Below, one piece after another: positions 26,515 to 44,135 of a stretch of 64,000 nucleotides of DNA. The first letter of the stretch is position 1. Each line of letters opens with the position of its first letter. Source of the stretch: Actinoplanes oblitus (GTDB lineage: Bacteria; Actinomycetota; Actinomycetes; Mycobacteriales; Micromonosporaceae); contig NZ_CP126980.1 in the NCBI RefSeq assembly GCF_030252345.1, positions 7,269,501 through 7,333,500 of the forward strand. The letters run 5' to 3'. The position numbers and the translations under genes are program-made. Under the pieces are notes generated by a model that saw nothing but the letters and a program-made list of their open reading frames with translations, searched no databases and was not told where the DNA came from.

Positions 26515-26553
26515 GTTGCCGGCACGTATGGGAATTCCGATAGGCGGACGATA
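26515..26553 (-). promoter_or_regulatory. VanR-type box A (vanY promoter)
   Basis: Minus-strand reading: TATCG-N6-TATCG direct repeat (11-bp phase), then CATACG and GGCAAC. The start codon of vanY is 24 nt further on. The box sits in the gap between vanY and the divergent vanR, so it may also influence vanRS. It is the most divergent in its centre (GGAATTCC in place of the A4/T4 core). Confidence 0.8.
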
Positions 26554-26577
26554 AGGGACGCCTCGTACCATCGGACC

Positions 26578-27276
26578 GTGCGCGTGTTGATTGTGGAGGA
26601 CGAGCCCTACATGGCGGAAGCCGTTCGCGACGGCCTGCGGTTGGAGGCGATCGCCGCCGACATCGCCGGCGACGGTGACACCGCGCTGGAGTTGTTGAGC
26701 GTCAACGCCTATGACATCGCCGTGCTCGACCGCGACATCCCCGGCCCGTCCGGCGACGAGGTCGCCCGGCGCATCCTCGCCTCCGGCAGCGGGATGCCGA
26801 TCCTCATGCTCACCGCCGCCGACCGGCTCGACGACAAGGCGTCCGGGTTCGAGATCGGCGCCGACGACTACCTGACCAAGCCGTTCGAGCTGCGCGAGCT
26901 GGTGCTTCGCCTGCGGGCGCTGGACCGTCGCCGCGCGCACAGCCGGCCGCCGGTGCGCGAGATCGCGGGCCTGCGCCTGGACCCGTTCCGGCGCGAGGTC
27001 TACCGCGACGGGCGGTACATTCCGCTCACCCGCAAGCAGTTCGCCGTTCTCGAGGTCCTGATCGGCGCCGAGGGCGGTGTGGTCAGCGCCGAGGAGCTGC
27101 TCGAGCGGGCCTGGGACGAGAACGCCGACCCGTTCACCAACGCGGTCCGCATCACCGTCTCGGCGCTGCGCAAACGCCTCGGCACGCCCTGGATCATCGC
27201 CACCGTGCCCGGAGTGGGATACCGCATCAGTGCCCAGCCCGAGGCGGAGGACGACGGCGGCGGCGACCGTGGCTAG
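26578..27276 (+). CDS. vanR: VanR-type response regulator (OmpR/PhoB family)
   Basis: 232 residues, the usual length. Receiver domain: VEDEP acidic pocket, phosphoacceptor Asp51 (VLDRDIP), T in LTAAD and Lys in YLTKPFELREL. The C-terminal winged helix shows PLTRKQFAVLEVL and VRITVSALRKRL. It partners with VanS encoded 8 bp into its own end. In actinomycetes VanRS turns on van genes when glycopeptide is sensed. Seven copies of a 39-bp element with 11-bp-phased direct repeats, typical of OmpR-family sites, occur before resistance genes in this window, so VanR is the natural candidate binder. Start GTG 26578 gives the standard N-terminus VRVLIVEDEP. Binding itself is inferred. Confidence 0.92.
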   Translation: MRVLIVEDEPYMAEAVRDGLRLEAIAADIAGDGDTALELLSVNAYDIAVLDRDIPGPSGDEVARRILASGSGMPILMLTAADRLDDKASGFEIGADDYLTKPFELRELVLRLRALDRRRAHSRPPVREIAGLRLDPFRREVYRDGRYIPLTRKQFAVLEVLIGAEGGVVSAEELLERAWDENADPFTNAVRITVSALRKRLGTPWIIATVPGVGYRISAQPEAEDDGGGDRG

Positions 27277-28444
27277 GGCTCCCGGCTGGAGTGTCCGCCT
27301 CAAACTCACTCTCAGCTACGCGGGGTTCCTCATGCTCGCCGGCGCGCTGCTGCTGGCCGTCGTCTGGGTCTTCCTCCTGCGCTATGTGCCCGACCAGCCC
27401 CATCCCCCGCCGCTGGACACGCTCGGCGGGACCGTCTATCGTGCCGACGATCTCATCCTGCAAGGTCCCAGCCGCCATGACCTGCTGAGCGCCTTCGCGC
27501 CGCGGGCCGCCGAGGTGATGGTGTTCCTGCTGGTGTTCGGTCTGCTGGGCGGCTGGATCCTGGCCGGCCGGATGCTCTCCCCGGTCACCCGCATCACCGA
27601 GGCCACCCGCCTGGCCGGCACCGGATCGCTGTCCCACCGCATCCGGATGCCCGGCCACAGCGACGAGTTCCGCGAGCTCGCCGACGCCTTCGACACCATG
27701 CTGGAACGGCTCGAGTCGCACGTCGCCGAGCAGCAGAGGTTCGCCGCCAACGCCTCGCACGAGTTGCGTACCCCGTTGTCGATCACGAAAACCCTGCTCG
27801 ACGTGGTCCGCAAGGATCCGAGTCACCTCACCGAGGAGTTCCTCGACCGCCTGCACGCCGTCAACTCCCGGGCGATCGCCCTCACCGAGGCGCTGCTCAT
27901 GCTCAGCCGGGCCGACCAGCGCTCCTTCGAGCCGGAGCGCGTCGACCTGTCGCTGGTCGCGGAGGAGGCCACCGAGACCCTCCTGCCCCTCGCCGAGAAG
28001 TGCGACACCACGGTGGAGACGTCCGGCGACCTCGCCCACGCGCTCGGCTCACCGGCCCTGCTGCTGCAGCTGACCACCAATCTGATGCAGAACGCGATAG
28101 TCCACAACCTGCCCAAAGCGGGGTCGGTGTGGGTGACCACCGCCCTGCACGACCGGAGCGTGGCGCTGACCGTGGAGAACACCGGTGAGGAGCTCACCCC
28201 GGAGCTGATCTCGACCCTCACCGAGCCGTTCCAGCGCGGCACCGAGCGGATCCACGCGGACCACGCCGGCGTGGGGCTCGGCCTGGCGATCGTCAAGGCC
28301 ATCGTCACCGCCCACGACGGGACCCTCACCCTGGCCCCCCGCGACGGCGGCGGTCTGCGCGTCACGGTGCGGCTGCCCGCGGCCCCGCCGCCGGAGCGCG
28401 ATGGCCGGCGCCTGCCGCCGGCGCCCCGCCGCTCGCCCGAGTGA
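27269..28444 (+). CDS. vanS: VanS-type sensor histidine kinase
   Basis: 391 residues. Two membrane segments (about 13-38 and 83-101) enclose a short extracytoplasmic loop of roughly 45 residues, followed by a HAMP region, the H box ANASHELRTPL (His164), the N box NLMQNAIVHN and the G box GVGLGLAIVKA. The small sensor loop is like that of actinomycete VanS proteins, which are proposed to bind glycopeptide directly. GTG 27269 overlaps the end of vanR by 8 bp, so the pair is translationally coupled. It autophosphorylates on His164 and passes the phosphate to Asp51 of VanR (family knowledge). Convergent with the Dyp peroxidase gene, with a 6-bp gap. Confidence 0.92.
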   Translation: MARAPGWSVRLKLTLSYAGFLMLAGALLLAVVWVFLLRYVPDQPHPPPLDTLGGTVYRADDLILQGPSRHDLLSAFAPRAAEVMVFLLVFGLLGGWILAGRMLSPVTRITEATRLAGTGSLSHRIRMPGHSDEFRELADAFDTMLERLESHVAEQQRFAANASHELRTPLSITKTLLDVVRKDPSHLTEEFLDRLHAVNSRAIALTEALLMLSRADQRSFEPERVDLSLVAEEATETLLPLAEKCDTTVETSGDLAHALGSPALLLQLTTNLMQNAIVHNLPKAGSVWVTTALHDRSVALTVENTGEELTPELISTLTEPFQRGTERIHADHAGVGLGLAIVKAIVTAHDGTLTLAPRDGGGLRVTVRLPAAPPPERDGRRLPPAPRRSPE

Positions 28445-28450
28445 GGCCTG

Positions 28451-29533
28451 TCACGCCAGCATGGCCTGCCCGGGGAAACCGGCGCCGCCGGGCAGGACGA
28501 AGTAGTAGCCACCGCCGAACGGCTTGACGAACCTCTCCAGCGCCTCGCCGGCGAGCCGGCGCTGGATGGCGGCGAAACCCTGGTCCACGTCGCGCTGGAA
28601 GCAGACGAAGATCTGGCCGGTGTCCGTCCCGGCGAGACGGTAGGCATGGCCACGGCGCAGGATCGGCCGTTCCCGGCCGGTGTCCGGATAGGCCCGCCGG
28701 ATGTGGGCGTCGAGCGGGATGACCGCGCCGCGCGGGTCGGCCGCGAACCGGGGCAGGTCGCGCTCGCCGGACTCGCCGAGAGGCGCTCCGGTGTTCTTGT
28801 GCCGCCCGATGACCCGTTCCTGGACGGCGGCCGGCTGCGCGTCCCAGGCCGGCACGGCCAGCCGGATCAGCCGCACCACCTGGTAGCTGCCACCCACGCA
28901 CCAGGCCGGCTCGTCGTCGTAGGGCTGGACCCATACGCAGCGGTCCATCAACTCGCCGTTCTCCGGGTCGGGATTCCCGGCGCCCTCCTTGAATCCCAGC
29001 GGGTTGCGCTGCCGGTGCGTGCCGGCCAGCCGCCACCGCGGCGTGAGATGCGGGAACCCGCCGGCCAGCATCGCCGCTATCGGTTCCCGGGTCTCCGCGC
29101 CGATCTGGACCAGCAGGTCGCCGTGGCACCACCGCGGATCGAGCGCGTCGTTGGGGAAGGACGGCATCCGGGTCAGCCGGCGTGGCCGCTCGATGCCGAA
29201 CCGGCCGTCGAACAGCGAGGCGCCCGCGGCGATCGTCACTGTCGCGCCGGAGACGGGTGCGCTCAACGCCCGGAGCGCCTCGGCGAGTTCCCCCGCGTCC
29301 CGGGCTGTCACGTCGAACGCCACGAACTCCGTTGCGGCGCACGAGGGCGTCACCACGCCGGCTTGGCGCCCGGGTGCGGCGGCCGCCACAGCCGGCGGGT
29401 CCGTCCTTCTCGGTCCGGCCCCCTCGATCGCCGTGCATCCGGCGAGACCGGCCAGGCTGGTGGCGGTCAGCAGCAGAGCCCGCCGGTCGACGGCCAGGTG
29501 GGTGAGGTGCCCACGGTCAGCGTCCTCGGACAA
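28451..29533 (-). CDS. Tat-exported Dyp-type peroxidase, probable lipoprotein
   Basis: 360 residues. The N-terminus has a twin-arginine run (DRRALLLTATSLAGLAGC) ending in a lipobox-like LAGC, so export folded with haem and lipid anchoring is likely. Dyp features: the loop GFKEGAGNP, VIGRHKNTGAPL, the proximal-His region DAHIRRAYP, the distal Arg segment FVCFQRDVDQGF and IQRRL. The normally invariant Asp of GxxDG is Glu here (GFKEG), a conservative but unusual change at the catalytic acid. Start TTG 29533 is chosen for GGAGAA at proper spacing and the Tat signal right after. Role unknown; a peroxidase could act on phenolic compounds or on haem/iron supply. No VanR box precedes it. Confidence 0.85.
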   Translation of the reverse strand: MSEDADRGHLTHLAVDRRALLLTATSLAGLAGCTAIEGAGPRRTDPPAVAAAAPGRQAGVVTPSCAATEFVAFDVTARDAGELAEALRALSAPVSGATVTIAAGASLFDGRFGIERPRRLTRMPSFPNDALDPRWCHGDLLVQIGAETREPIAAMLAGGFPHLTPRWRLAGTHRQRNPLGFKEGAGNPDPENGELMDRCVWVQPYDDEPAWCVGGSYQVVRLIRLAVPAWDAQPAAVQERVIGRHKNTGAPLGESGERDLPRFAADPRGAVIPLDAHIRRAYPDTGRERPILRRGHAYRLAGTDTGQIFVCFQRDVDQGFAAIQRRLAGEALERFVKPFGGGYYFVLPGGAGFPGQAMLA

Positions 29534-29590
29534 GATCGGTTCTCCTCCATCGGCTCCGGGAGCACCGGGCGGGGCCGGGTGCTCGGTACC

Positions 29591-29626
29591 GCGGGCCGGC
29601 CGCACCACCTGGTGTGGCCGGCCCGC
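29591..29626 (-). terminator. Strong hairpin after the beta-propeller gene
   Basis: GCGGGCCGGCC pairs with GGCCGGCCCGC, extended by CACCA/TGGTG around a two-base loop; about 17 pairs with one wobble, 27 bp after the stop of the beta-propeller gene and before the Dyp start. Confidence 0.65.
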
Positions 29627-29652
29627 TGACGTGGCGGGACTCGAGCCCGCTG

Positions 29653-31386: not shown

Positions 31387-31453
31387 GCAATGCCCTCCAA
31401 CGGGAACGCACTATTCGGCCATTCCCTGGGGACATTACTTTCGCACCGCCGCT

Positions 31454-31474
31454 GTCCAAACAATCACCTTGGAC
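31454..31474 (-). promoter_or_regulatory. Inverted repeat GTCCAA-N9-TTGGAC before the beta-propeller gene
   Basis: Half-sites equal those of the StrR-type boxes but with a 9- instead of 17-base spacer; one more base pairs outside (T...A). It lies 67 bp before the start codon. It could be an operator for another regulator or a non-functional relic. Confidence 0.45.
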
Positions 31475-31574
31475 AATCGGCGGCGCCCGGTACGCTCACG
31501 GCGAGAGCGCTTTCTTATCGCGTACCGAAAAATGATCTTCCGATAAAGCCGGCGGCGCGCATCCGGCGGCCGGA

Positions 31575-31600
31575 CACCGGCACCAAAGGCGATGCCGGTG
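31575..31600 (-). terminator. Hairpin after the stand-alone vanH
   Basis: CACCGGCA and TGCCGGTG pair around a 10-base loop, 7 bp after the vanH paralogue stop. It would end this single-gene transcript. Confidence 0.5.
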
Positions 31601-31606
31601 CTCCAT

Positions 31607-32611: not shown

Positions 32612-32634
32612 CCGCACAGTGAAGAGAGGCCGGT

Positions 32635-32673
32635 GTTGCCAGCACGTATGCGATTTTCAATATGCCGGCGATA
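32635..32673 (-). promoter_or_regulatory. VanR-type box B (stand-alone vanH promoter)
   Basis: Minus-strand reading begins TATCGCCGGCATATTG, continues through AAAATCG and CATACG, and ends GCTGGCAAC. It fills the 80-bp gap between the murF stop and the vanH start and leaves 23 nt to the start codon. The following 5' leader contains CTTCACTG, related to the CTTGACTG found at other copies. Confidence 0.85.
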
Positions 32674-32693
32674 TGTTTCCGGCGGCGTTCCCG

Positions 32694-34034
32694 TCACACC
32701 AGCGCGGCGGCGACCTGGTCGAGTCGCGCCCCGCGGGAGGCTTTGACGAGCACCACGTCGCCGGCGGCGAGGTGGTCGCGCAGCCAGCCGATGGCGGCGT
32801 CGTTGTCGGCCAGCGCCACGGCTCGCTCCCCCGCTCCGGCGGCGAGCGGGCGCACGGCCTCGCCGACGGCGATCACCATGTCGGCCCGGGCGGCGGCGTA
32901 CTCGCCCACGGCACGATGCTCGGCCTCGCTGGCCTGGCCGAGCTCGAGCATCTCGCCGAGCACGGCGATGCGGCGGCCGCCCTGCACGGCGAGCAGCGCG
33001 TCGAGGGCGGCGCGGGTCGAGTCCGGGCTGGCGTTGTAGGAGTCGTTGAGCAGCGTCACGCCGCCGGTGAGGTCGTGCCGCTCCATCCGCCACTTGGAGA
33101 GCGAGGCGGTGGCCAGCGCCGCCGCGGACGCGTCCGGCGTCACGCCGGTGGCCAGCGCCGCGGCAGTCGCCGCGGCCGCGTTGATCGCCTGGTGCGCCCC
33201 GACGAAGGGCAGCGTGAACGAGGCGGAGCCGGCGCCGGTGTGCAACGTGAAGGACGGGCGGCCGAGCCGGTCCAGGGTGAGGTCACGGATCTGGACGTCC
33301 GCGTCGCCGTAGCCGAAGGTCACCACCGGCCCGTCGGTCAGCGAACGCATCGCCGCCACCCGCCGATCATCGGCGTTGAGAACGGCTGTCCCGCCGGGCA
33401 CCAGCCCCTGCACCAGCTCGCCCTTGGCCTTCGCGATCGCCTCCCGGGAACCGAACTCACCGAGGTGCGCCTTGCCCACGCTGGTGACGACGGCGACGTC
33501 GAGCGGGTACCGCGAGGTGAGCTTGGCGATGTCGTCGACGTGCCGGGCACCCATCTCGATGACCAGGAACCGGGTGTCCCGTCCGGCGCGCAGGATGGTC
33601 AGCGGCACCCCGAGCTCGTTGTTGCGGTTGGCGATCGTGGCGATCGTCGGCGCGCTGCTCGCCAGCACGGCTCCCAACTGGTCCTTGGTGCTGGTCTTGC
33701 CCTGCGAGCCGGTCACCCCGATCACTGTCAGCCCGTCCCGCAGGCGGCCGAGGACATGCTGGGCGAGCGCCTGCACGGCGGCCTGCGCGTCCGGCACCAC
33801 CACGGTGGGCAGCTCGGTGGGCCGGGAACCGAGCACCGCGACGGCACCCGCCCGACCGGCCTGACCGGCGAAGTCATGACCGTCGACGCGCTCACCGTCG
33901 AACGCGACGAACAGGCCGCCCGGCTGGGCCTCCCGCCCGTCCAGCACCGCCGGAGCGGTCACCGTCACCGCGGGATCCCCCACCACGGTCCCAGCGACCA
34001 CCGTGGCGATCTCCTCGAGACTGAGCGGGATCAT
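32694..34034 (-). CDS. murF: MurF-type ligase paralogue 1
   Basis: 446 residues, normal MurF length. MurF joins UDP-MurNAc-tripeptide to D-Ala-D-Ala; resistance-linked paralogues are thought to prefer D-Ala-D-Lac. Seen: ATP loop [13 protein letters not shown] (about 106-118), the substrate loop [19 protein letters not shown], the central LNADD and the C-terminal [18 protein letters not shown]. Its first 90 codons are nearly identical in DNA to the other murF here, with diverged stretches further on, suggesting gene conversion. The ATG at 34034 overlaps the stop of a 13-residue leader ORF (ATGA), so translation is probably coupled. A VanR-type box stands before that leader. A housekeeping murF is expected elsewhere (dcw cluster). 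Confidence 0.92.
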
Positions 34035-34072
34035 GCCTGATCACCGCCGGAAACTGCATCGTGGAAGTTCAT
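34031..34072 (-). CDS. 13-residue leader ORF coupled to murF paralogue 1
   Basis: ATG at 34072, 24 nt after VanR-type box C, encodes [13 protein letters not shown] and stops with TGA overlapping the murF ATG by ATGA. The equivalent ORF before the second murF is [13 protein letters not shown]: same length, same position relative to the box and to murF, and 7 of 13 residues identical (MNFH, V, GG, final A are the constant parts). That conservation and geometry support real translation. Possible roles are translational coupling or attenuation of murF, or a peptide with its own function. It may also be the relic of a gene 5' end after a promoter-cassette fusion. No database identity is claimed. 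Confidence 0.65.
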
Positions 34073-34096
34073 GCTTTCCAGTCAAGGTCGGCTCGT

Positions 34097-34135
34097 GTTG
34101 CCGGTGCGTATGCGATTTTCGATACGCCGGCGATA
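34097..34135 (-). promoter_or_regulatory. VanR-type box C (leader-murF 1 promoter)
   Basis: Minus-strand reading TATCGCCGGCGTATCG, AAAATCG, CATACG, then CACCGGCAAC. Direct repeat TATCG-N6-TATCG is perfect. The leader ATG is 24 nt downstream, with CCTTGACTGG between. Confidence 0.87.
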
Positions 34136-34150
34136 CAGGCTGTGACCACA

Positions 34151-34197: not shown

Positions 34198-34202
34198 GGG
34201 TG

Positions 34203-35075
34203 TTACGGCTTCAGCGGCGGGTAGTCCGGGTCGAGCAGGCCGTTCTCCTTGAGCAGCCCGTGCAGCGGGACCTGGTCCGGGTAGTGGCCCCAGGCGTGGT
34301 CACCGTCGCCGTCCGCGAGACCGAGCAGCTGCCGCTGCACCGGGGTGAGGCCGGGCAGGTCCGCCGACATCGCCTCGCGGCTGCGCACCCAGCGGTACGT
34401 GTACCCGAAGAAGACGCCCTTGCGGGTGATCTCCGAGTAGTTGTTCGAGCGGGCGTGCCAGATACGCCTGTCGAAGAAGACCGCGTCACCGGGGTTGGCG
34501 GTCACCTCGATCGCGCCGTCGGGGTTGGGCCACTCGACGTCCCGGCGCGGCGGGCCGGCGATCCAGTTGGTGAGGTGGCTGCCCGGCACGACCTGGAAGT
34601 TGCCCCGCCCGGTTTCCGAGACGTCGGACAGCCAGTACGCGAGCTTCACCGACAGCCGCGGCCGCGGGTCCGTCTCGATCTCGCGGTTCTGCCGGCCGCC
34701 GTCCTGGTGCCACTCGAACCGGAAGGGCTTCTTCTCGGTCAGCGGCGGGTGCACGTCGAGGTGCGAGTGGTACATGTGCACGTTCCAGCCGAGCATCGAC
34801 CAGACCAGGCCGAACACCTTCGGATGGTCGAGCAGCGGCGCGAGTTCGTGGCAGCTCTCGACAGCGTTGAGCTTGTGCAGCGACCGGTCGGCGGCGAGCT
34901 TGCCGGCGGCGGCGTGCTCCTCGTAGACCCGGTCGACGGCGGCCGCGTAGTGGGCGACCTCGTCGTCGGAGAGCACGCCGGGCACGACGAGGAAACCGTC
35001 CCGCTCGAACGCGGCGCGCTGCTCGTCGGTCATTGCGGTGCCCGGATCGAGCCGGGTCGGGATGGGGGTGGTCAC
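34203..35075 (-). CDS. Phytanoyl-CoA dioxygenase-family Fe(II)/2-oxoglutarate oxygenase
   Basis: 290 residues. Double-stranded beta-helix oxygenase with a visible iron triad: HQDGG (HxD) and the distal His in RIWHARSN, followed by the Arg/Thr-rich 2-oxoglutarate region (SEITRKGVFFGYTYRW). The N-terminus AFERDGFLVVPGVLSDDEV is typical of PhyH proteins. It would hydroxylate an unknown small substrate. Start GTG 35075 follows GGAAGGA. The only promoter-like signal upstream is VanR-type box D, about 310 bp away, with a leader ORF and a decayed murF fragment between. This suggests that the gene is part of the vancomycin-type regulon. Candidates for its substrate are a cell-wall precursor, an amino acid of the peptide, or a lipid; none can be chosen from sequence. 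Confidence 0.82.
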   Translation of the reverse strand: MTTPIPTRLDPGTAMTDEQRAAFERDGFLVVPGVLSDDEVAHYAAAVDRVYEEHAAAGKLAADRSLHKLNAVESCHELAPLLDHPKVFGLVWSMLGWNVHMYHSHLDVHPPLTEKKPFRFEWHQDGGRQNREIETDPRPRLSVKLAYWLSDVSETGRGNFQVVPGSHLTNWIAGPPRRDVEWPNPDGAIEVTANPGDAVFFDRRIWHARSNNYSEITRKGVFFGYTYRWVRSREAMSADLPGLTPVQRQLLGLADGDGDHAWGHYPDQVPLHGLLKENGLLDPDYPPLKP

Positions 35076-35114
35076 GAAGGGTCCTTCCTCCCGTGAACAG
35101 ATTCCTGCTGCACG

Positions 35115-35242
35115 TGCGAACAACCCGCCCGGCTCGGCGCGCCGGCCGACGGGCACGATCGAGCGGTCGCCGGTACGGCGCCCGTTTCCTCGACCGTCCC
35201 GCCGGGGACCGCGGCGATCGCGCCGAGGCCGAGCGGGATCAT
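35115..35242 (-). pseudogene. Decayed murF 5' fragment
   Basis: Begins with ATG encoding MIPLGLGAIAAVPGGTV, alignable to [17 protein letters not shown] of murF 1. Homology then continues after a frame change as RAEPGGLF (versus REAQPGGLF of murF) and stops around 35115. The DNA alignment to murF 1 is continuous over about 125 bp, with small indels. The next gene, the oxygenase, starts 40 bp later. No ATP loop or later MurF part remains. This is the third murF-like locus behind a VanR-type box in the window. Confidence 0.7.
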
Positions 35243-35358
35243 GCCCAGGCGGAGCTGGCGCCGGCGATCCGCAGCGACAGCCACCCGGCCGCATCGACGG
35301 CGGGCGGCGGCCCGCTGGTGGGAAGGCGATGCACGGCGGCTGCTCGGCCATAGGTCAC
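35239..35358 (-). CDS. 39-codon leader ORF behind box D, possible vanH remnant
   Basis: A GTG at 35358, exactly 24 nt after box D, opens a 39-codon frame beginning VTYGRAAAVHR and ending AWA, whose TGA overlaps the ATG of the murF remnant (ATGA). Position and overlap copy the arrangement of the MNFH leaders before the two murF genes, but the peptide is different. Its first residues resemble the VanH N-terminus (MTYSE...). It may be translated, or it may be a relic left when cassettes recombined. Confidence 0.4.
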   Translation of the reverse strand: MTYGRAAAVHRLPTSGPPPAVDAAGWLSLRIAGASSAWA

Positions 35359-35382: not shown

Positions 35383-35421
35383 GTTGCGGCCACGTATGCG
35401 CTTTTCGATACGCCGACCATA
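35383..35421 (-). promoter_or_regulatory. VanR-type box D (remnant and oxygenase promoter)
   Basis: Minus-strand reading TATGGTCGGCGTATCG, AAAAGCG, CATACG, then TGGCCGCAAC: one change in the first TATCG and one in the GGCAAC end, still ungapped with the others. CTTTACTG follows in the leader. It lies between the beta-lactamase-like gene stop (35457) and the remnant region. Confidence 0.78.
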
Positions 35422-36719: not shown

Positions 36720-36953
36720 GATGGGGTCCTCTCCCGTAGACGGATGTCGGCGCGGGACGGTCACGCGCCGTGATTCGTGCTTCCGGTGCGCTAACGATCA
36801 AGCGACATGCGCGACGTCGATCGGTCACCCGGGTGGGGGTGACGGTGTCCGGCGGGACCGGGATGCGGGAGCCGTGAGAAGGGCGCGGCCGAGGGCGCCG
36901 ATCACGGTCGGCAGGCGTACCGCTACGCGGCCGGATATTACTGGCCGGTAATA

Positions 36954-36992
36954 TATCGCCCGCGTATCGAAAACCACATACGCGCTGGCAAC
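36954..36992 (+). promoter_or_regulatory. VanR-type box E (vanHAX promoter)
   Basis: Plus-strand reading TATCGCCCGCGTATCG, AAAACCA, CATACG, then CGCTGGCAAC; direct repeat perfect. The region just upstream is AT-rich (GGTAATATATCG). CCTTGACTG and the vanH ATG at 37017 follow, giving the common 24-nt spacing. The rest of the 36720-36953 gap shows no clear gene or box. Confidence 0.88.
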
Positions 36993-37016
36993 ACCCCATT
37001 GCCTTGACTGATGGGT

Positions 37017-38060
37017 ATGACCTACAGCGAGCTAGCGACAGCACCAGCACGAGCCGGCGGCCAGTCGCTGAGGTCCCGCACTCCCGCCACCGTCCCGGCG
37101 ACCGGGATCACCATCTATGGATGCGGGCCGGACGAGGCCGATCTGTTCCGGGCGCTGGCCCCGCGCCTCGGCGTGCTGCCGACGCTCGTCGACGAGCCCG
37201 TGTCCGAGGCCAACAGCCACCTCGCCGTCGGTAACCGATGCGTCAGCGTCAGCCACAAGACCCCGATCACCAACGACACGCTCCTCGCGCTCAGCCGAGC
37301 CGGCGTGGAGTACGTGTCGACGCGCAGCATCGGTTACAACCACATCGACGTGGCATACGCGGCCGGCCTCGGCATCACCGTGGGCAACGTCGCCTATTCA
37401 CCGGACAGCGTCGCCGACTACACCCTGATGCTGATCCTGATGGCGATCCGGAACGCCAAATCCATGATCCGCCGCACCGACGCCCACGACTACCGGCTGC
37501 ACGAGACGCGTGGCAGGGAGTTGCGCGACCTGACCGTCGGCGTGATCGGGACGGGGCGCATCGGCGTGGCGGTCATCGACCGGCTGCGCGGCTTCGGGTG
37601 CCGGATCCTGGCCAACGACAACCGGCCGAAGACCTCGGTGGAGTACGTACCGGTCGACACGTTGCTGCGGCAGAGCGACATCGTCACGCTGCACACCCCG
37701 CTCACCCCGGCCACCCATCATCTGCTGGACCGCCGGCGGTTCGCGCTGATGAAACCCGGGGCGTACGTCGTCAACACCGGCCGCGGCCCGCTCCTCGACA
37801 CCGAGGCCCTCGTCGACGCCCTGACCAGCGGCCGGCTGGGCGGTGCCGCGCTGGACGTGGTCGAGGGCGAGGAAGGCGTCTTCTACGCCGACCGCCGGGA
37901 CACGCCCATCGCGAGCTCCCCGCTCCTGGCGTTGCAGGAGATGGCGAACGTGCTGGTCAGCCCGCACACCGCCTACTTCACCGACCACGCCCTGAGCGAC
38001 ACCGTGGAGAACTCCCTCGTCAACTGCCTGACCTTCGAGAGTAGGAATCAGCGTGGATAA
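37017..38060 (+). CDS. vanH: VanH, D-lactate dehydrogenase of vanHAX
   Basis: 347 residues. NAD-dependent D-2-hydroxyacid dehydrogenase making D-lactate from pyruvate for VanA. Seen: GVIGTGRIGVAVID (Rossmann), STRSIGYNHID, VVNTGRGPLLDTEA with the catalytic Arg, ALDVVEGEEG with Glu and LVSPHTAYFTDH with His. An ATG at 37011 is also possible. The ATG at 37017 is preferred because it keeps the 24-nt distance to the box and aligns with the second vanH. First gene of the classic vanHAX trio; vanA starts 8 bp inside its 3' end. Confidence 0.96.
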   Translation: MTYSELATAPARAGGQSLRSRTPATVPATGITIYGCGPDEADLFRALAPRLGVLPTLVDEPVSEANSHLAVGNRCVSVSHKTPITNDTLLALSRAGVEYVSTRSIGYNHIDVAYAAGLGITVGNVAYSPDSVADYTLMLILMAIRNAKSMIRRTDAHDYRLHETRGRELRDLTVGVIGTGRIGVAVIDRLRGFGCRILANDNRPKTSVEYVPVDTLLRQSDIVTLHTPLTPATHHLLDRRRFALMKPGAYVVNTGRGPLLDTEALVDALTSGRLGGAALDVVEGEEGVFYADRRDTPIASSPLLALQEMANVLVSPHTAYFTDHALSDTVENSLVNCLTFESRNQRG

Positions 38061-39093
38061 GCTGAAAGTCGGAATCATCTTCGGGGGCGTCTCCGAGGAG
38101 CACCCCGTCTCCATCAAGTCGGCGGTGGAGGTCGCCAAGGCCCTCGACACCGACAAGTACGAGCCGTTCTACATCGGCATCACCCGTGACGGCGCGTGGA
38201 AGCTCTGCGACGCCCCCGGCCCGGACTGGGAGGACGGCAACACCCGTCCGGCAGTGCTGTCCCCGGACCGTGGCGTGCACGGGCTGCTGGTCCTGGAGCC
38301 GGGACGATACGAGACGATCAGCCTGGACCTGGTCCTGCCCGTGCTGCACGGCAAGCTCGGCGAGGACGGTGCGATGCAGGGCCTGCTGGAGCTCTCCGGC
38401 ATCCCCTACGTCGGCTGCGACATCCAGAGCTCCGCGGTGTGCATGGACAAGTCCCTGACCTACGCCGTGGTCGGCAACGCCGGCATCGCGACACCCCAGT
38501 TCTGGGTCGTCTCGGCGGACGAGCTGCCCGATCCCGAGCAGCTCACCTATCCGGTCTTCGTGAAGCCGGCCCGCTCCGGCTCGTCCTTCGGCGTCACCAA
38601 GGTGAACGGCCCGGACGAGCTGCCGAGCGCCGTCGAGGAGGCCCGGCAGTACGACTCGAAGATCCTGATCGAGGCGGCCGTGATCGGCAGCGAGATCGGC
38701 TGCTCGATCCTCGGCAACGACGAGGACCTGATCGCCGGCGAGGTGGACCGGGTCGCCCTCTCCCACGGCTTCTTCCGGATCCACCAGGAGAGCTCGCCGG
38801 AGACCGGCTCGGAGAACTCCTCGTTCATCGTTCCCGCCGACATCCCGGCGGAGTCGCGCTCGCTCGTGCAGGAGACGGCCAAGGCCATCTACCGCGTCCT
38901 CGGATGCCGGGGTCTGGCCCGGGTCGACATGTTCCTCAAGGAGGACGGCAGCGTCGTCCTGAACGAGGTCAACACCCTGCCCGGGCTCACCTCCTACAGC
39001 CGCTACCCGCGGATGATGGCGGCCGCCGGGCTGCCGCTCAGCGAGGTGATCGACCGGATGATCTCGCTCGCGCTGACCGGGAAACTCCGATGA
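38053..39093 (+). CDS. vanA: VanA-type D-Ala-D-Lac ligase
   Basis: 346 residues. ATP-grasp ligase. Motifs: GGVSEEHPVSIKSA (Glu/Ser N-terminal loop), VLHGKLGEDGAMQG, KPARSGSSFGVTKV, RVDMFLKEDG and LNEVNTLPGLT (Mg-binding Glu-x-Asn). The omega-loop region FRIHQESSPETGSENSSF carries His where D-Ala-D-Ala ligases have Lys-Tyr, the feature that makes VanA/VanB-class enzymes prefer D-lactate. The product lowers glycopeptide affinity of the cell wall. GTG 38053 overlaps vanH; its TGA overlaps the vanX ATG. Confidence 0.97.
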   Translation: MDKLKVGIIFGGVSEEHPVSIKSAVEVAKALDTDKYEPFYIGITRDGAWKLCDAPGPDWEDGNTRPAVLSPDRGVHGLLVLEPGRYETISLDLVLPVLHGKLGEDGAMQGLLELSGIPYVGCDIQSSAVCMDKSLTYAVVGNAGIATPQFWVVSADELPDPEQLTYPVFVKPARSGSSFGVTKVNGPDELPSAVEEARQYDSKILIEAAVIGSEIGCSILGNDEDLIAGEVDRVALSHGFFRIHQESSPETGSENSSFIVPADIPAESRSLVQETAKAIYRVLGCRGLARVDMFLKEDGSVVLNEVNTLPGLTSYSRYPRMMAAAGLPLSEVIDRMISLALTGKLR

Positions 39094-39746
39094 GCACAGC
39101 TTCGATGAACAAGGACTTCGTCTTCGTCGATGACGTCGTACCCGGCATCCGGTGGGACGCCAAGTACGCGACCTGGGACAACTTCACCGGCAAGCCCGTG
39201 GACGGCTACCACGCCAACCGGATCGTCGGCACCACGGCGCTGTGCGCGGCGCTGGCCCGGGCGCAGGAGGCGGCCGAGGCTCGCGGCTTCGGCCTGCTGC
39301 TCTGGGACGGGTATCGTCCGCAGCGCGCCGTGGACTGCTTCCTGCGCTGGTCGCAGCAGCCCGAGGACGGCCGGACGAAACTGCGGCACTATCCGAACAT
39401 CGAGCGGGCACAGATGTTCGACCTGGGATATGTCGCCGCCAAGTCGGGTCACAGCCGCGGCAGCACCGTCGACCTGACGCTCTATCACCTGGCCACCGGT
39501 GAGCTCGCGCCGATGGGCGGTGACCACGACCTGATGGACCCCGTCTCCCATCACGGTGCCGCCGGGATCACGCCGACCGAGACGGCGAACCGCCAGCACC
39601 TCTGCTCCATCATGGAGGAATCCGGTTTCGTCCGCTACGACTGCGAGTGGTGGCACTACACGCTGCGGGACGAGCCGTACCCGGACACCTATTTCGATTT
39701 TCCGATCACCGAGGTGAGCCGGATGAAGCAGTTGGCGGGGCGTTGA
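39090..39746 (+). CDS. vanX: VanX D-Ala-D-Ala dipeptidase
   Basis: 218 residues (a second ATG at 39105 would give 213). Zinc dipeptidase of peptidase family M15D; it destroys D-Ala-D-Ala made by the host ligase so that D-Ala-D-Lac is used. Zinc and catalytic motifs: SGHSRGSTVDLT (SxHxRGxxxD), Glu-His in CEWWHY, and the Arg in LWDGYRPQRAV. ATGA overlap with vanA. A terminator-like hairpin follows at 39780. Confidence 0.97.
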   Translation: MSTASMNKDFVFVDDVVPGIRWDAKYATWDNFTGKPVDGYHANRIVGTTALCAALARAQEAAEARGFGLLLWDGYRPQRAVDCFLRWSQQPEDGRTKLRHYPNIERAQMFDLGYVAAKSGHSRGSTVDLTLYHLATGELAPMGGDHDLMDPVSHHGAAGITPTETANRQHLCSIMEESGFVRYDCEWWHYTLRDEPYPDTYFDFPITEVSRMKQLAGR

Positions 39747-39779
39747 CGCGTCCGCGCGGTGCGTGATCGGTGAAGACGA

Positions 39780-39809
39780 GGCTCCGTCGGCCACCCGGCC
39801 GGCGGAGCC
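39780..39809 (+). terminator. Hairpin after vanHAX
   Basis: GGCTCCG and CGGAGCC enclose an inner GGCC/GGCC stem, 33 bp after the vanX stop. It separates vanHAX from the Ddl-like gene. Confidence 0.6.
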
Positions 39810-39890
39810 CATCAGCGCGCGTACCTCTGGCACACGTTCCTTTCGCACGTTCTTCTCAACAACGGGCGCCTGATCCCTTGGAGTGCACTG

Positions 39891-40865
39891 ATGTCGGAGC
39901 TTGGTCGCGTTCTCGTGCTGGCCGGCGGGCTCTCCCCCGAGCGCGACGTGTCGCTGCGGTCCGGGCGGCGGGTGCTCGAGGCGCTGCGCGGCCTCGACGT
40001 GGACGTGGAGTTCGGCGATCTCGGCACCGAGTTGATGGCCTCCCTGATCGCCGACCCACCGTCGGTGGTACTGCCCGTCCTGTACGGCAACCCCGGTGAG
40101 GACGGCACCGTCCGTGAGGTGCTGGAACTGGTCGGCGTGCCCTATGTCGGCGCGTCGGTGGAGGCCTGCCGGCTCGCCTTCGACAAGCCCCTGGCGAAGG
40201 CGCTGCTCGTCAAGGCCGGCCTCGGCACGCCGGCATCCGTGACGCTGCCCCGGGAGGCCTTTCACGACCTGGGCGCCGCCCCGCTGATGTCACTGATCCT
40301 CAAGCGGCTCGGCCTGCCCCTGTTCGTCAAGCCCCGCGCCGGCGGATCCGCCTTCGGCGTCACGCAGGTCCGGGACGCCGACCAGCTGCCCGCGGCGCTG
40401 ATGGCCTGCTTCGCCTACCACGACACCGCACTCATCGAGCGGGCCGTGGTCGGTGTCGAGGTCGCCGTCGGCGTGGTCGACCTGGGCGAGGGGCCGGTGG
40501 CGATGCCGGCGGTCGAGATCGTCCCGCGGCGCGGCATCTACGATTACGCCGCCCATTACTCGGCGGGAGCGACCCAGTTCTTCTGCCCGGCCCGCCTGAG
40601 TGAGCGGGCGGAGCAGGCGGTCGCGCGGGCCGCGCTGACCGCCCACCGGGCGCTGGGCCTGCGGGACCTGTCGCGGACCGATCTCATCGTCGACCAGGAC
40701 GACCAGGTGTACGTGCTGGAGACGGCAGTGGCGCCCGGGCTCACCGACACCTCCACCTTCGCGATGGGCCTGGCCGCCAAGGGTTACGCGTTCGACCGGG
40801 TCTGGCTGCAACTCGCCAGGCTCGCCGAGGCCCGGGGCAGTTCACCGGCGGCCCGCCACTCGTAA
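39891..40865 (+). CDS. Divergent Ddl-like ATP-grasp protein
   Basis: 324 residues, homologous along its length to D-Ala-D-Ala ligases: GGLSPERDVSLRSG loop, GEDGTVREVLELVGVPYVGAS, FDKPLAKALL, IYDYAAHYSAGATQFFCPA and SRTDLIVDQDDQVYVLE. Several signature residues differ from active Ddl. The GSS loop reads GSA, the Lys before the omega-loop Tyr is His (AAHY instead of AKY), the Mg-binding Glu-x-Asn reads ETA, and HGxxGEDG reads YGNPGEDG. It may have changed specificity or have lost activity. It has its own start (TTGGAG upstream) and no VanR-type box. Its last 82 bp overlap, in convergent orientation, the hypothetical gene 40784-41431. Confidence 0.85.
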   Translation: MSELGRVLVLAGGLSPERDVSLRSGRRVLEALRGLDVDVEFGDLGTELMASLIADPPSVVLPVLYGNPGEDGTVREVLELVGVPYVGASVEACRLAFDKPLAKALLVKAGLGTPASVTLPREAFHDLGAAPLMSLILKRLGLPLFVKPRAGGSAFGVTQVRDADQLPAALMACFAYHDTALIERAVVGVEVAVGVVDLGEGPVAMPAVEIVPRRGIYDYAAHYSAGATQFFCPARLSERAEQAVARAALTAHRALGLRDLSRTDLIVDQDDQVYVLETAVAPGLTDTSTFAMGLAAKGYAFDRVWLQLARLAEARGSSPAARHS

Positions 40866-41431
40866 GGCACCGCGTCGACCAGCAGCGGCGCCACGTGCGC
40901 GGGCATCAGCCCGGCGATCGTGCTGCGCGCCGCTGCCGCCCGCCCGTCGAGATCGGTCAGCACCGACTCCATCAGGTCACGGACCCACGGGAAGTCGGCC
41001 GACCTGATGAGGCGGACCACCTCGTCGTCGCTCGCGTCGGCGAAGGCGGTCTCCATGATGGCGAAGGCCCGGCGCGACGTCCGGCTCGCGGCCGCCCAGC
41101 GGAGCAGGTCGACCAGGGGGATCGCGGGTGCCGCCGGTCCACCCGCGTCGAGGACGTCGGCGAGCACGACATCGTTGATGTACAGGATCGGCGTGAGATC
41201 CTCCAGCAGGGTCGCCTCGTCATCGGCGAGGCACTGCAGGACGGCGAGCTCCTCCAGGACCTCGCGCATCCCCCTGCGGGGGCCGGTCAAATGCAACCGG
41301 AATCGTCCGCGGCCGACATTTACCGGGACGATCATATTCACCGTCTCCACGGGCGACACGTCCGAGTCACGGGCAGAAATCACGGCGTTCTCCAGCCATG
41401 TTCCGAAGATGTGGTTTTCATTCAGCCGCAC
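40784..41431 (-). CDS. Hypothetical protein following murF 2
   Basis: 215 residues, not recognised. Soluble, no signal peptide or membrane segment, mostly helical in composition (REVLEELAVLQCLADDEATLLEDL, RDLMESVLTDLDGRAAAAR). It starts with GTG 41431, 53 bp after the second murF stop on the same strand, and would be co-transcribed with it under VanR-type box G. The last 82 bp run into the 3' end of the Ddl-like gene, so either this frame is really shorter in use or the two genes truly overlap tail to tail. Reality of the gene is likely because the frame stays open with coding bias through the non-overlapping part. Confidence 0.6.
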   Translation of the reverse strand: MRLNENHIFGTWLENAVISARDSDVSPVETVNMIVPVNVGRGRFRLHLTGPRRGMREVLEELAVLQCLADDEATLLEDLTPILYINDVVLADVLDAGGPAAPAIPLVDLLRWAAASRTSRRAFAIMETAFADASDDEVVRLIRSADFPWVRDLMESVLTDLDGRAAAARSTIAGLMPAHVAPLLVDAVPYEWRAAGELPRASASLASCSQTRSNA

Positions 41432-41484
41432 CCGGGCCGCTTTCTATCGACATCCAGAAATGTACGCGGCGGGGGTCCACGGCG

Positions 41485-42987
41485 CTATGCCGTCCACTGT
41501 CCGAGCGCGTCGGCGACCTCGTCGAGACGTGCCATCCGGGACGCCTTGACCAGCACCACGTCACCGGCGGCGAGGTGGTCGCGCAGCCAGCCGATGGCCG
41601 CGTCGTTGTCGGCCAGTGCTACGGCCCGCTCCCCCGCCCCGTCGGCGATCGGAGCGGCCGCCTCGCCGACCACGACGACCAGGTCGGCGGCGAGCGCGGC
41701 GTACTCCCCGATCGCGCGGTGCTCGGCCTTGCTGTCGTCGCCGAGCTCACGCATCTCGCCGAGCACGGCGATGCGCCGGCCGCCCGCGATGGCCGCCAGC
41801 GCGTCGAGAGCGGCGCGGGTCGAGTCGGGGTTGGCGTTGTAGGAGTCGTTGATCAGCGTGGCACCGCCGCTGAGGTCGCGCAGCTCCATGCGCCACTTCG
41901 ACAGCTCGGCGGTGGCCAGCGCCGCGGCCGCCGCCTCGATCGCGACACCTGCCGAAAGCCCGGCCGCGACGGCGGTCGCGGCGTTGATCGCCTGATGCGC
42001 GCCGATGAACGGCAGCGCAACCGAAACGGAGCCGCGCCCGGCCGGCAGCAGGTCCGGCGCAGCGTCGCCGCTGCCGCCGGTCGGCCCGTCCGGCGCGACC
42101 TCGCCGCCATCGGTCCGCGGCGCATCCGGCGCGGCGTCGCTCCGGCGACCGGCCTGCGGCTCATCCGGCGCGACCTCGCGGCTGCCGCGGACCCGCAGCG
42201 TGAAGGACGGGCGGCCGAGCCGGTCCAGGGTCAGACTGCGGATCTGGACGTCCGCGTCGCCGTAGCCGAAGGTCACCACCGGCCCGTCGGTCAGCGAACG
42301 CATCGCCGCCACCCGCGGATCATCGGCGTTGAGAACGGCTGTCCCGCCGGGCACCAGCCCCTGCACCAGCTCGCCCTTGGCCTTCGCGATCGCGTCCCGG
42401 GAACCGAACTCGCCGAGATGCGCCACGCCGACGTTGAGCACGACGGCGATGTCGAGCGCCACCAGATCGGTCAGCTTGGCGATGTCGCCGATGTGCCGGG
42501 CGCCCATCTCGAGAACGAGGAACCGGGTCTCCGGAGTGACCCGCAGCATGGTGATCGGCACCCCGAGCTCGTTGTTCAGCGAGCCGACCGTGGCGACGGC
42601 CGGCCCCGCCATGGCGAGCACCGCCGCCAGCATGTCCTTGGTGCTGGTCTTGCCCTGCGACCCGGTCACCCCGACCACTGTCAGCCCGTCCCGCAGGCGG
42701 CCGACGACAAATGCCGCCAGCGTCTGCAGCGCCGCCCGCGCGTCCGGCACCACCACGGTGGGCAGCTCGGTGGGCCGGGAACCGAGCACCGCGACGGCAC
42801 CCGCCCGACCGGCCTGACCGGCGAAGCCATGACCGTCGACGCGCTCACCGTCGAACGCGACGAACAGGCCGCCCGGCTGGGCCTCCCGCCCGTCCAGCAC
42901 CGCCGGAGCGGTCACCGTCACCGCGGGATCCCCCACCACGGTCCCAGCGACCACCTCGGCGATCTCCGCCAAGCTGAGCGGAATCAT
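41485..42987 (-). CDS. murF: MurF-type ligase paralogue 2 with repeat insertion
   Basis: 500 residues, about 50 longer than usual. Same motifs as paralogue 1: [13 protein letters not shown] (106-118), [24 protein letters not shown] and [18 protein letters not shown]. The extra length is a block at about residues 267-318 made of four units of 12-13 residues ([10 protein letters not shown].., DAAPDAPRT.., EVAPDGPTG.., [10 protein letters not shown]..), low in complexity and placed in a loop of the central domain. The protein is otherwise closely similar to paralogue 1, especially in the first 85 residues. The ATG overlaps the stop of a 13-residue leader ORF; VanR-type box G lies before it. Likely role: ligation of D-Ala-D-Lac onto the UDP-MurNAc-tripeptide. 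Confidence 0.92.
42034..42189 (-). repeat. Tandem repeat insertion inside murF 2
   Basis: Four in-frame 36-39-bp units, each containing a GCGxCxTCG-like core on the plus strand and encoding (E/D)(V/A)APD plus a Gly/Arg-rich spacer. Paralogue 1 has only a short linker here, so this is an expansion specific to one copy. Confidence 0.7.
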
Positions 42988-43025
42988 GCTTCACCACCGG
43001 CGTCGACTGATTCGTGGAAGTTCAT
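42984..43025 (-). CDS. 13-residue leader ORF coupled to murF paralogue 2
   Basis: ATG at 43025, 24 nt after box G, encodes [16 protein letters not shown] overlaps the murF ATG (ATGA). It is the twin of the ORF at 34031-34072. Middle codons differ between the twins while MNFH, V, GG and the final Ala stay. The DNA around the start (ATGAACTTCCACGA) is identical. Confidence 0.65.
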
Positions 43026-43049
43026 GCCGCCCAGTCAAGGCCACCCGGT

Positions 43050-43088
43050 GTTGCCAGCATGTATGCGGTTTTCGATACGCCAACGATA
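43050..43088 (-). promoter_or_regulatory. VanR-type box G (leader-murF 2 promoter)
   Basis: Minus-strand reading TATCGTTGGCGTATCG, AAAACCG, CATACA, then TGCTGGCAAC; direct repeat perfect. CCTTGACTGG follows before the leader ATG. Confidence 0.87.
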
Positions 43089-43165
43089 GGTTACGGCGAG
43101 TAGTCCGCCTGGTACCGCTCCGGTGCCTTCGCGCAGCGAATTCCTCGGCGATCGCACCGGCAGGC

Positions 43166-43245
43166 CTCGCCCTCAGCGGCCTCGCCCTCAGCGGCCTCGT
43201 TTCAGCGGCCTCGTTTCAGCAGCCTCGCCCTCAGCGGCCTCGCCG
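43166..43245. repeat. Short tandem repeat array, 14-15-bp units
   Basis: Five and a half units: CCTCGCCCTCAGCGG twice, CCTCGTTTCAGCGG, CCTCGTTTCAGCAG, CCTCGCCCTCAGCGG, then CCTCGCC. Lies in the 298-bp gap between box G and the VanZ-like gene, which otherwise holds GC-rich duplicated words (GAGCCCCGGGGC / CAGCCCCGGGGC), a GGTGCGG/CCGCACC hairpin and the terminator below. No gene seen in the gap. Confidence 0.8.
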
Positions 43246-43329
43246 AGGTCGCGTTGAGCCCCGGGGCCGATGCACGGGGGGACATCAGCCCCGGGGCGTC
43301 CATGAGGTGCGGAAGGCCGCACCGTGAAG

Positions 43330-43352
43330 CGGCGCCCGATGATCGGGCGCCG
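43330..43352 (-). terminator. Hairpin after the VanZ-like gene
   Basis: CGGCGCCCGAT, one base, ATCGGGCGCCG: a perfect 11-bp palindrome 34 bp after the VanZ-like stop. Confidence 0.6.
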
Positions 43353-43386
43353 ACGGCGGATCGGGCGGCGAACGCCCCGCTGAGAG

Positions 43387-44073
43387 CTACTCGACAGCCA
43401 CCGAGGCACGGTGCCGCTGATCCGACCGCGTCTCCGCCGCGGTCCGCCACCAGCGGCGCGACAAGAGCCCGGCGAGCGCCGCACCGGCCGCGTTCACCAG
43501 CACGTCGTCGATCGACGAGACCCGGTCCAGCTGGAACACGTACTGCGCGGTCTCCACCAGGATCGAGCAGACCGCCCCGAGCGCCAGGATCCGTGGCAAC
43601 GACGCCAGCACCGCGAAGCGCATCGGCGCGAAGAACCCCAGCGCCGCGAAGATCAGCAGGTTGCCCCCGATCCCGATCGGCCCCATCGTGGCCAGGTCGC
43701 GCAGCGGCACCAGGCTCAGCCGGCCGGGGACGACACCGGCCCCGGGCCCCGGCATCAGGGTCAGCCACACCATGGGGACCGTCCCGTAGACCATGCCCAC
43801 CTCGGCCAGCGACGAGCGCCACGCCGACACCGCACCGGCAGCGCGCCGCCAGGTCGCCAGCGCCCATGCCAGCAGAACGGCGAACGGCAGCCCCACCAGC
43901 ATCATCAGCACCACACCGTTCTCGGTGTCGTAGCAACCGTGCCAGTGCCCGCCCAAACACCGCGGAGCGGACATCAGGAGCGGCCGCCGTACGGCGTACA
44001 CCGCGCTCATCAGCCCGAGTAGTGCCAGGCCGGCGAACACGACGCTCCGAGTACGGCGCGTGCTGTGGTTCAT
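43387..44073 (-). CDS. vanZ: VanZ-like membrane protein
   Basis: 228 residues with about five membrane segments (VVFAGLALLGLMSAVYAV, VVLMMLVGLPFAVLLAWAL, VGMVYGTVPMVWLTL, NLLIFAALGFFAPMRF, ALAGLL). The core NLLIFAALGFFAP...VETAQYVFQLDRVSSIDDVLVNAAGAALG-type pattern (here ..AAGAALAG) is that of VanZ-family proteins, which raise teicoplanin/lipoglycopeptide tolerance by an unclear mechanism. Start ATG 44073 lies 23 nt after VanR-type box F. Alternative upstream starts would run through the box and are rejected. It closes the resistance island. Confidence 0.85.
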   Translation of the reverse strand: MNHSTRRTRSVVFAGLALLGLMSAVYAVRRPLLMSAPRCLGGHWHGCYDTENGVVLMMLVGLPFAVLLAWALATWRRAAGAVSAWRSSLAEVGMVYGTVPMVWLTLMPGPGAGVVPGRLSLVPLRDLATMGPIGIGGNLLIFAALGFFAPMRFAVLASLPRILALGAVCSILVETAQYVFQLDRVSSIDDVLVNAAGAALAGLLSRRWWRTAAETRSDQRHRASVAVE

Positions 44074-44096
44074 GCCTCTATTAGAGATGGCGCGCC

Positions 44097-44135
44097 GTAG
44101 CGGCGGCGTATGAACTTTTGAATACGCCCGCGATA
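44097..44135 (-). promoter_or_regulatory. VanR-type box F (vanZ promoter)
   Basis: Minus-strand reading TATCGCGGGCGTATTC, AAAAGTT, CATACG, then CCGCCGCTAC. Second half-repeat and the terminal GGCAAC are degenerate; the ungapped fit and the 23-nt spacing to ATG still hold. Confidence 0.7.

Follow-up and report, generated by a model that had tools for sequence, protein, structure and literature searches.

The 64,000-nucleotide stretch of Actinoplanes oblitus analysed here (assembly GCF_030252345.1, contig NZ_CP126980.1, positions 7,269,501 to 7,333,500 of the forward strand; hereafter the window) contains a van locus in which the response regulator gene vanR and the sensor kinase gene vanS lie among vanHAX, a second, lone vanH, vanY, vanZ, two murF genes and a murF remnant followed by a PhyH-type oxygenase gene. 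A 39-bp element, called here the VanR box, precedes each of these units except vanRS, which is divergent to vanY and faces the other edge of its box. Seven such elements are found between positions 26515 and 44135. Our results point to the box being, with high probability, the operator of VanR, each copy making up the upstream part of a full expression module.

The initial annotation had described seven elements aligning over 39 bp without any gap, and both the alignment and the matrix scores confirm them. Six lie on the minus strand, with 5' ends in the gene direction at 26553, 32673, 34135, 35421, 43088 and 44135, and one lies on the plus strand, at 36954. With a weight matrix derived from the window, the seven boxes score 47.5-62.1, while the best other position in the window scores 16.1 and the top score in first-order Markov versions of the window (n = 60) is 13.8; each box still reaches 34.1-56.4 with a matrix from which it was left out. 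When the sites are compared pairwise (20 pairs, murF pair excluded), mean identity is 0.78 inside the 39 bp and 0.29-0.34 upstream, with 0.50 over the next 24 bp downstream and 0.32 beyond. The promoters of the murF pair are alike downstream (0.77-0.82), because the two genes are duplicates, and only 0.15-0.28 identical upstream. This high identity inside the box and low identity upstream, in the murF pair as well, indicate that the box itself is what is conserved. A scan of the whole genome with a matrix of the seven sites had been proposed as a check; the matrix was built, and a search of the 9,807,870-bp genome with the full pattern, at no more than three mismatches, found six places, all in the van locus, and none for the reversed control. 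The seventh box (44135) has four mismatches to the full pattern (manual count). The shorter core TATCG-N6-TATCGAAAA, at no more than two mismatches, is found at 15 places in the genome, seven at the locus and eight elsewhere (two for the control), and is therefore not specific by itself.

The internal organisation of the box agrees in part with the initial description. The TATCG-N6-TATCG repeat is exact in four of the seven boxes and inexact in the other three; AAAA stands at positions 17-20 in six, CATACG occurs in six and GGCAAC in five (manual count on the sites). The 11-bp phase is likewise exact for the TATCG pair, whereas the whole profile is no more periodic at 11 bp than its column shuffles (0.17, with a 95% limit of 0.26). 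An OmpR-type reading as 11-bp direct repeats is plausible, albeit not supported by the profile as a whole. A profile correlation of 0.33 was also seen at a shift of 18. The box was rightly called nearly palindrome-free: the dyad symmetry of its profile is not significant (correlation 0.32, p = 0.62 in column shuffles), and it does not resemble a palindromic operator. An Rfam scan of the window gave no matches.

The same box is found in many other genomes, where it accompanies VanR. When the window matrix was applied to vanA loci from named genomes (the best 80 of 322), a box scoring above 25 was present in 68, with maxima of 13.2 in Markov versions and 14.0 for the reversed matrix; the 12 loci without one comprise nine non-actinobacterial and three actinobacterial ones (L033, L035 and L082 in our numbering). 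Among 394 genomes of the class, the full pattern at no more than three mismatches is present in 61 (the reversed control giving 0 in every row listed) and VanR, at E ≤ 1e-110, in 71. Box and VanR are found together in 58 genomes, the box only in three, VanR only in 13 and neither in 320 (p = 1e-52, kinship ignored). As for the three box-only genomes, a VanR that is 67-72% identical lies close to the box in two (G271 and G391), and the third (G152) is fragmented. The gene vanA is present in 22 of the 394 genomes, and in the 372 others the box is found in 39 of 51 with VanR vs. 2 of 321 without it (p = 1e-39, kinship ignored). The possibility that the box marks vanHAX rather than VanR is thus disfavoured, 58 of the 61 boxed genomes having a close VanR and 20 of them vanA. 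Finally, of the 47 loci whose VanR is at least 75% identical, 42 have the box edge 24-27 bp from the start of vanR on the opposite strand; of the remaining five loci, one has its box at 145 bp and four have none. For the class genomes, 42 vanR-box pairs were chosen by eye from the lists of box and VanR matches. The occurrence of the box with VanR even where vanA is absent, its fixed distance to divergent vanR and its wide presence before van genes support the VanR operator reading of the initial annotation. With its six boxes at this threshold, the source genome is the richest listed in the class sample and among 354 family genomes, the next having four. One genome (G354) has four boxes at separate places (L170-L173), and some VanR regulons are therefore scattered. 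In Actinoplanes rectilineatus (L083), tandem boxes at 8819 and 8906 (+) precede one vanH, and two vanR genes are found at 11658-13138.

Two features were not part of the initial description, namely that the unit extends to a fixed start codon, probably that of a leaderless mRNA, and that one box can probably serve both flanking sides. They emerge from 236 non-redundant boxes, collected from the 80 loci, the window and 70 stretches of other genomes (153 and 95 boxes merged, 12 duplicates removed); gene classes were assigned by BLAST clustering, with Pfam used on representatives only, and 17 of the 236 boxes are single or unassigned. In the gene direction, the box is followed by 11 bp, a weak -10, which is mostly TTGACT, and the start codon. 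The latter is at box position 62-64 in 225 of the boxes (position 63 in 169, 64 in 53 and 62 in three), as it is in all seven boxes of the window, and TTGACT occupies positions 51-56 in 138 of the 225, including three of the seven in the window. The operator is thus at a fixed distance from the -10, with the -35 place inside the box by position, as in a tandem-site class II promoter. With only 6-7 bases between the -10 and the start codon, a leader would not fit, and the mRNAs of boxed genes are therefore probably leaderless, as judged from this geometry. The fixed position also indicates that the vanH of vanHAX likely starts at 37017, not at 37011. In S. coelicolor, the mRNAs of vanH, vanK and vanR are documented as leaderless in the source consulted (PMC4282423).

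On the other edge of the box, at 22-27 bp, an ATG or GTG opens an open reading frame (ORF) of at least 30 residues in 108 of the 236 cases. In 80 of these the ORF was recognised as vanR, by a short motif that misses at least one (L104), and a TANNNT -10 is present in 77 of the 80; some of the remaining 28 ORFs are probably due to chance. In two loci (L131 and L052), vanH and a murF gene flank a single box, both at roughly the usual distance from it. One box can thus apparently serve both sides, despite a profile without dyad symmetry. In two others (L067 at 6197 and L080 at 6249), a box stands before vanK and the opposite ORF reads like a VanS N-terminus, not like vanR.

These observations are consistent with the following mechanism. 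VanS would sense the glycopeptide and phosphorylate VanR, as is known for relatives, and phosphorylated VanR would bind the box, which would cover the usual place of the -35, and recruit RNA polymerase to the weak -10 (usually TTGACT) 11 bp downstream. Transcription would begin on or beside the start codon, 6-7 bases past the -10, and produce a leaderless mRNA. Where vanR lies on the opposite side, the same box would drive it via a -10 of the TANNNT type, resulting in autoregulation. In the source strain, where we infer VanR binding, induction and transcription start site from the DNA, the seven modules would place vanHAX, the second vanH, vanY, vanZ, both murF genes and the PhyH oxygenase under one switch. 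In PhoB/OmpR-type class II activation, the operator takes the place of the -35. The box likewise replaces the -35, ends 11 bp before the -10 and contains two TATCG motifs 11 bp apart; it differs in that its profile periodicity is not significant and that one box can serve both sides. An extracytoplasmic function (ECF) sigma factor promoter is presumably an unlikely description of the box module, judging by the consensus of such promoters.

Several observations weigh against this operator and leaderless-module reading. Eleven of the 236 boxes have no start codon at positions 60-64, 13 of the 71 VanR genomes have no box at three mismatches or fewer, and the association statistics ignore kinship. 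According to the part of the literature consulted, leaderless transcripts of S. coelicolor are under-represented among the genes raised by all three glycopeptides tested (PMC7947799). A vanH fragment of S. coelicolor, which was reported to be induced about twenty-fold, compared to about forty-fold for a vanJ fragment (PMC9779433), ends by its primer inside the box, without the native -10, and is nevertheless induced; the place of the primer was judged from relatives, in which 16 of 19 (L043) and 18 of 19 (L025) bases match. This induction is unexplained by our model, unless the vector supplies a -10.

Three other explanations were considered. It is possible, albeit rather unlikely, that the box is indeed the VanR site and that the modules are constitutively on in the source strain, with a VanS active without inducer as in the teicoplanin producer: Tei3 of A. 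teichomyceticus is reported to be a non-inducible phosphorylase (PMC9779433) and the source locus also adjoins a glycopeptide-type cluster, while the weak -10s fit either state. That the box is read by another factor travelling with van loci (a second regulator or a special sigma factor), VanR being a mere neighbour, appears improbable. The -10 of boxed promoters is unusual, and a second palindromic element (see below) abuts many vanH boxes, so that at least one more factor may act there; the box nevertheless co-occurs with VanR even without vanA and abuts vanR at a fixed distance, and, according to the literature consulted, the corresponding promoters of S. coelicolor are VanRS-dependent. Even less tenable is the idea that one promoter region was recently duplicated and spread by recombination to give the seven copies, whose likeness would then say little about function, for although the murF remnant and both murF genes arose by duplication, with the murF pair alike downstream, and although first codons are common to unrelated genes, likeness ends at the box edges, the same 39 bp and spacing are found in many genera, and within-genome homogenisation of cassettes was not seen, those of the same locus being no more alike than expected (0.534 vs. 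a shuffled mean of 0.521 and a maximum of 0.564). The VanR operator reading is thus the one that we retain.

The features of the locus are collected in Table 1. The gene names initially given before the boxes are borne out by NCBIfam and Pfam, and the murF remnant ahead of the oxygenase is readable in the translated frames. The best NCBIfam match of vanS is VanS-O, at 459 bits, under the cut-off of 720. The lone vanH is 72% identical to the vanH of vanHAX, and the two murF genes are 73% identical, murF A having a 50-residue insertion. With an OmpR-type VanR, a VanS kinase, a D-Ala-D-Lac type vanHAX and, in front of each unit, a shared operator that relatives also have and that co-occurs with VanR, the locus is a VanRS regulon of a known kind.

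Table 1. Features of the van locus of A. oblitus (positions in the window; box scores from the window-derived matrix)
Feature	Position	Strand	Remarks
vanY, D,D-carboxypeptidase, 204 aa	25876..26490	-	PF02557
VanR box before vanY	26515..26553	-	score 53.1; start codon at box position 64; -10 TGAGCT; other edge faces vanR
vanR, OmpR-type response regulator, 232 aa	26578..27276	+	PF00072 + PF00486; GTG start 24 bp off box edge, divergent
vanS, sensor kinase	27269..28444	+	HAMP, HisKA, HATPase_c; start uncertain: 27230, 27269 or 27332
Second, lone vanH, 334 aa	31607..32611	-	NCBIfam VanH models, under specific cut-offs
VanR box before lone vanH	32635..32673	-	score 62.1; start position 63; -10 TTCACT
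murF B, 446 aa	32694..34034	-	TIGR01143, 401 bits vs. cut-off 288.6
13-codon mini-ORF at fixed start, 4-base overlap with murF B	34031..34072	-	
VanR box before murF B	34097..34135	-	score 59.7; start position 64; -10 TTGACT
PhyH-type Fe(II)/2-oxoglutarate oxygenase ORF	34203..35351	-	PF05721; homology to relatives from about residue 72 (about 35138)
murF remnant, N-terminal residues only	35072..35242	-	behind 39-codon ORF opening at fixed start
VanR box before murF remnant and PhyH oxygenase	35383..35421	-	score 57.2; GTG at position 64; -10 TTTACT
Palindrome ATTACTGGCCGGTAAT	36937..36952	.	just upstream of vanHAX box
VanR box before vanHAX	36954..36992	+	score 58.1; ATG at position 64 = 37017; -10 TTGACT
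vanH of vanHAX, 347 aa	37017..38060	+	start shifted from 37011 to fixed position; NCBIfam
vanA, D-Ala-D-Lac ligase	38053..39093	+	NF000206, 627 bits vs. cut-off 550
vanX, D,D-dipeptidase	39087..39746	+	PF01427
murF A, 500 aa	41485..42987	-	Mur ligase domains
13-codon mini-ORF at fixed start, 4-base overlap with murF A	42984..43025	-	
VanR box before murF A	43050..43088	-	score 60.3; start position 64; -10 TTGACT
vanZ, 228 aa	43387..44073	-	PF04892
VanR box before vanZ, weakest of the seven	44097..44135	-	score 47.5; start position 63; -10 TCTAAT

To the left of the van genes lie nonribosomal peptide synthetase (NRPS) genes encoding proteins of 2068, 1161, 4344 and 1923 aa, whose sizes we take to resemble the teicoplanin order; of the two proteins scanned, that of 2068 aa has two NRPS modules and that of 1161 aa one. 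A halogenase, three glycosyltransferases and deoxysugar genes also lie in this flank, together with two P450s among the ten proteins scanned. The van locus thus probably adjoins a glycopeptide biosynthesis cluster (2779-24253, -, and L102-L103), as predicted from these genes, and the boxed genes probably serve cell-wall self-protection from a glycopeptide antibiotic. Other neighbours have no box. These are a serine hydrolase of the beta-lactamase family (35457-36764, -), five relatives of which (59-67% identity) are boxed in other genomes; a D-Ala-D-Ala ligase-like gene behind vanHAX (39891-40865, +); and, at 28649-29620 (-) and 44189-50570, genes for a Dyp-type peroxidase, a glutathione peroxidase-like protein, two ATP-binding cassette (ABC) transporter genes and cytochrome bd subunits. 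Behind murF A, a 215-aa ORF (40784-41431, -) has neither a Pfam match nor a relative in the 80 vanA loci.

The resemblance between boxed genes continues past the start codon. Unrelated genes have similar first codons: vanK, for example, opens with ATG-TCC-TAC-AGC-GAA-CCA, and both vanH and several murF leaders with ATG-ACC-TAC-AGC-GAA. When different genes from different loci are compared, agreement is 0.476 over bases 4-24 and 0.358 over bases 25-45, and the wobble base is A (vanH excluded) in 33% of codons 2-8 and 9% of codons 11-20. Complete short ORFs open at the fixed start in 29 cases, 15 of which overlap the next ORF by four bases, including those of both murF genes of the window. A reading suggested by these sequences is that the box cassette brings its own translation start. 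We tentatively propose, with a little more doubt than confidence, that VanR regulons may grow by a portable cassette in which the box is followed by the weak -10, a leaderless start codon and some seven leader codons (ATG-NCC-TAC-AGC-GAA-CCA-GCA). Genes would join it either by carrying the leader in frame (vanH, vanK, some vanY and murF) or behind a mini-ORF overlapping by four bases (murF, some vanK, serine hydrolase, ABC transporter), and the leader would act as nucleic acid, in translation start and coupling, and not as protein. The cassette of the broken murF, now before the PhyH oxygenase, would make of the latter a candidate new part of self-protection or tailoring. Against such a cassette, the leader is loose in vanY and none is seen in vanJ and vanZ, and the leaders of boxed genes are possibly alike by common descent. 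In the part of the literature consulted, CA repeats behind the start codon are said to raise the translation of leaderless mRNAs (PMC9031893). The leaderless genes with downstream enhancers, or small leaderless ORFs, described there have in common with the boxed genes a start codon at the predicted 5' end, CA-rich first codons and mini-ORFs ahead of the gene; here, in contrast, one unit with a single operator recurs across unrelated genes, and is known from sequence.

The PhyH oxygenase has a relative (82% identity) in one of the 80 vanA loci, that of Actinoplanes rectilineatus (L083), which is boxed too, with a score of 30.2. In a protein search (best 120 of 1734 matches), the five closest relatives are 85-89% identical and include those of Phytohabitans flavus, A. 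rectilineatus and Actinoplanes sp. ATCC 53533, the latter described as the producer of UK-68,597 (PMC7325946). Relatives at about 61-67% are widespread in the genus, 57 of 67 genomes, own genome included, having a match at E ≤ 1e-60. The version of the van locus therefore seems split from the common one, and is a candidate for a role in glycopeptide self-protection or tailoring.

A second, palindromic element stands upstream of some boxes. A short palindrome like TTACYGGYCGGTAA, with a match of at least 11 of 14, precedes 29 of 84 vanH and 5 of 11 murF promoters, and none like it was found at this threshold before 58 vanY, 28 vanK, 15 vanZ and 13 vanJ boxes. In seven of eight divergent box pairs, most of them murF/vanH, this element occupies the 18-19 bp between the boxes, and the murF matches are therefore largely the same sites as the vanH ones. 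In the window, it is present before vanHAX (13/14) and upstream of the box at 35421, before PhyH (11/14). Covariation of its arms is mixed, and similar sequences, as well as control matches, are found elsewhere in the genome. Judging from its placement, a second regulator may bind there.

In Amycolatopsis, the box before vanH has in some cases decayed, and the -10 then reads TACACT in A. regifaucium (L035) and A. orientalis (L044) and TATACT in A. vastitatis (L060). A TANNNT -10 is found in two of the six fixed-start boxes scoring below 38 vs. none of the 219 scoring at least 38, to which L035, with a box below the score limit, is to be added (Fisher 5.6e-7, for three promoters chosen after inspection, two of which share one change). 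The other four low-scoring boxes keep a non-canonical, TTGACT-like -10, which speaks against the general case. As L035 and L044 share their change and these four do not follow it, the pattern is only suggestive of vanHAX having become independent of VanR in Amycolatopsis through a decayed box and a canonical -10. It fits with vancomycin and norvancomycin clusters being described without vanRS (PMC7852140) and with the reported independence of A. balhimycina vanHAX from VlnR, on which vanY depends (PMC7325946).

The control of vanHAX by VanRS in S. coelicolor is established in the literature consulted, in which vanRSJKHAX is induced by glycopeptides (PMC7947799). With this system the locus shares the VanR/VanS pair, vanHAX and, as predicted from the geometry, the leaderless type of mRNA documented for vanH, vanK and vanR (PMC4282423); in S. 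tendae (L043), a close relative of S. coelicolor, vanJ, vanK and vanH each follow a box with the same spacing. The A. oblitus locus differs by having seven boxes compared to three in L043, by the absence of boxed vanJ and vanK, and by boxes before vanY, vanZ, a second vanH, two murF genes and the PhyH oxygenase. The S. toyocaensis locus (L066) has three boxes. The clusters of teicoplanin, A47934, UK-68,597, balhimycin and vancomycin are described, in the part consulted, with vanHAX and vanRS beside NRPS, halogenase, P450 and glycosyltransferase genes (PMC7325946), as here, from which the above account of vancomycin and norvancomycin clusters differs, together with the decayed A. orientalis box. 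No actinobacterial VanR operator was recognised in the open-licence literature searched, although the motif may be in print elsewhere, and the VanR targets of A. balhimycina are stated to be yet to be identified (PMC7148328). The operator definition, the portable leader and the boxed PhyH oxygenase may be new.

The operator, its fixed geometry, its two-sided use and the unusual members of the regulon merit specialist attention. A precise operator for actinobacterial VanR would make glycopeptide-response regulons readable from sequence and would add members not usually listed, such as the PhyH oxygenase, serine hydrolases, ABC transporters and extra murF genes. The decayed boxes with canonical -10s in Amycolatopsis suggest a route by which a producer could free vanHAX from VanR. 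Finally, the fixed geometry and the shared first codons provide a testable case of a promoter and a translation start moving together.

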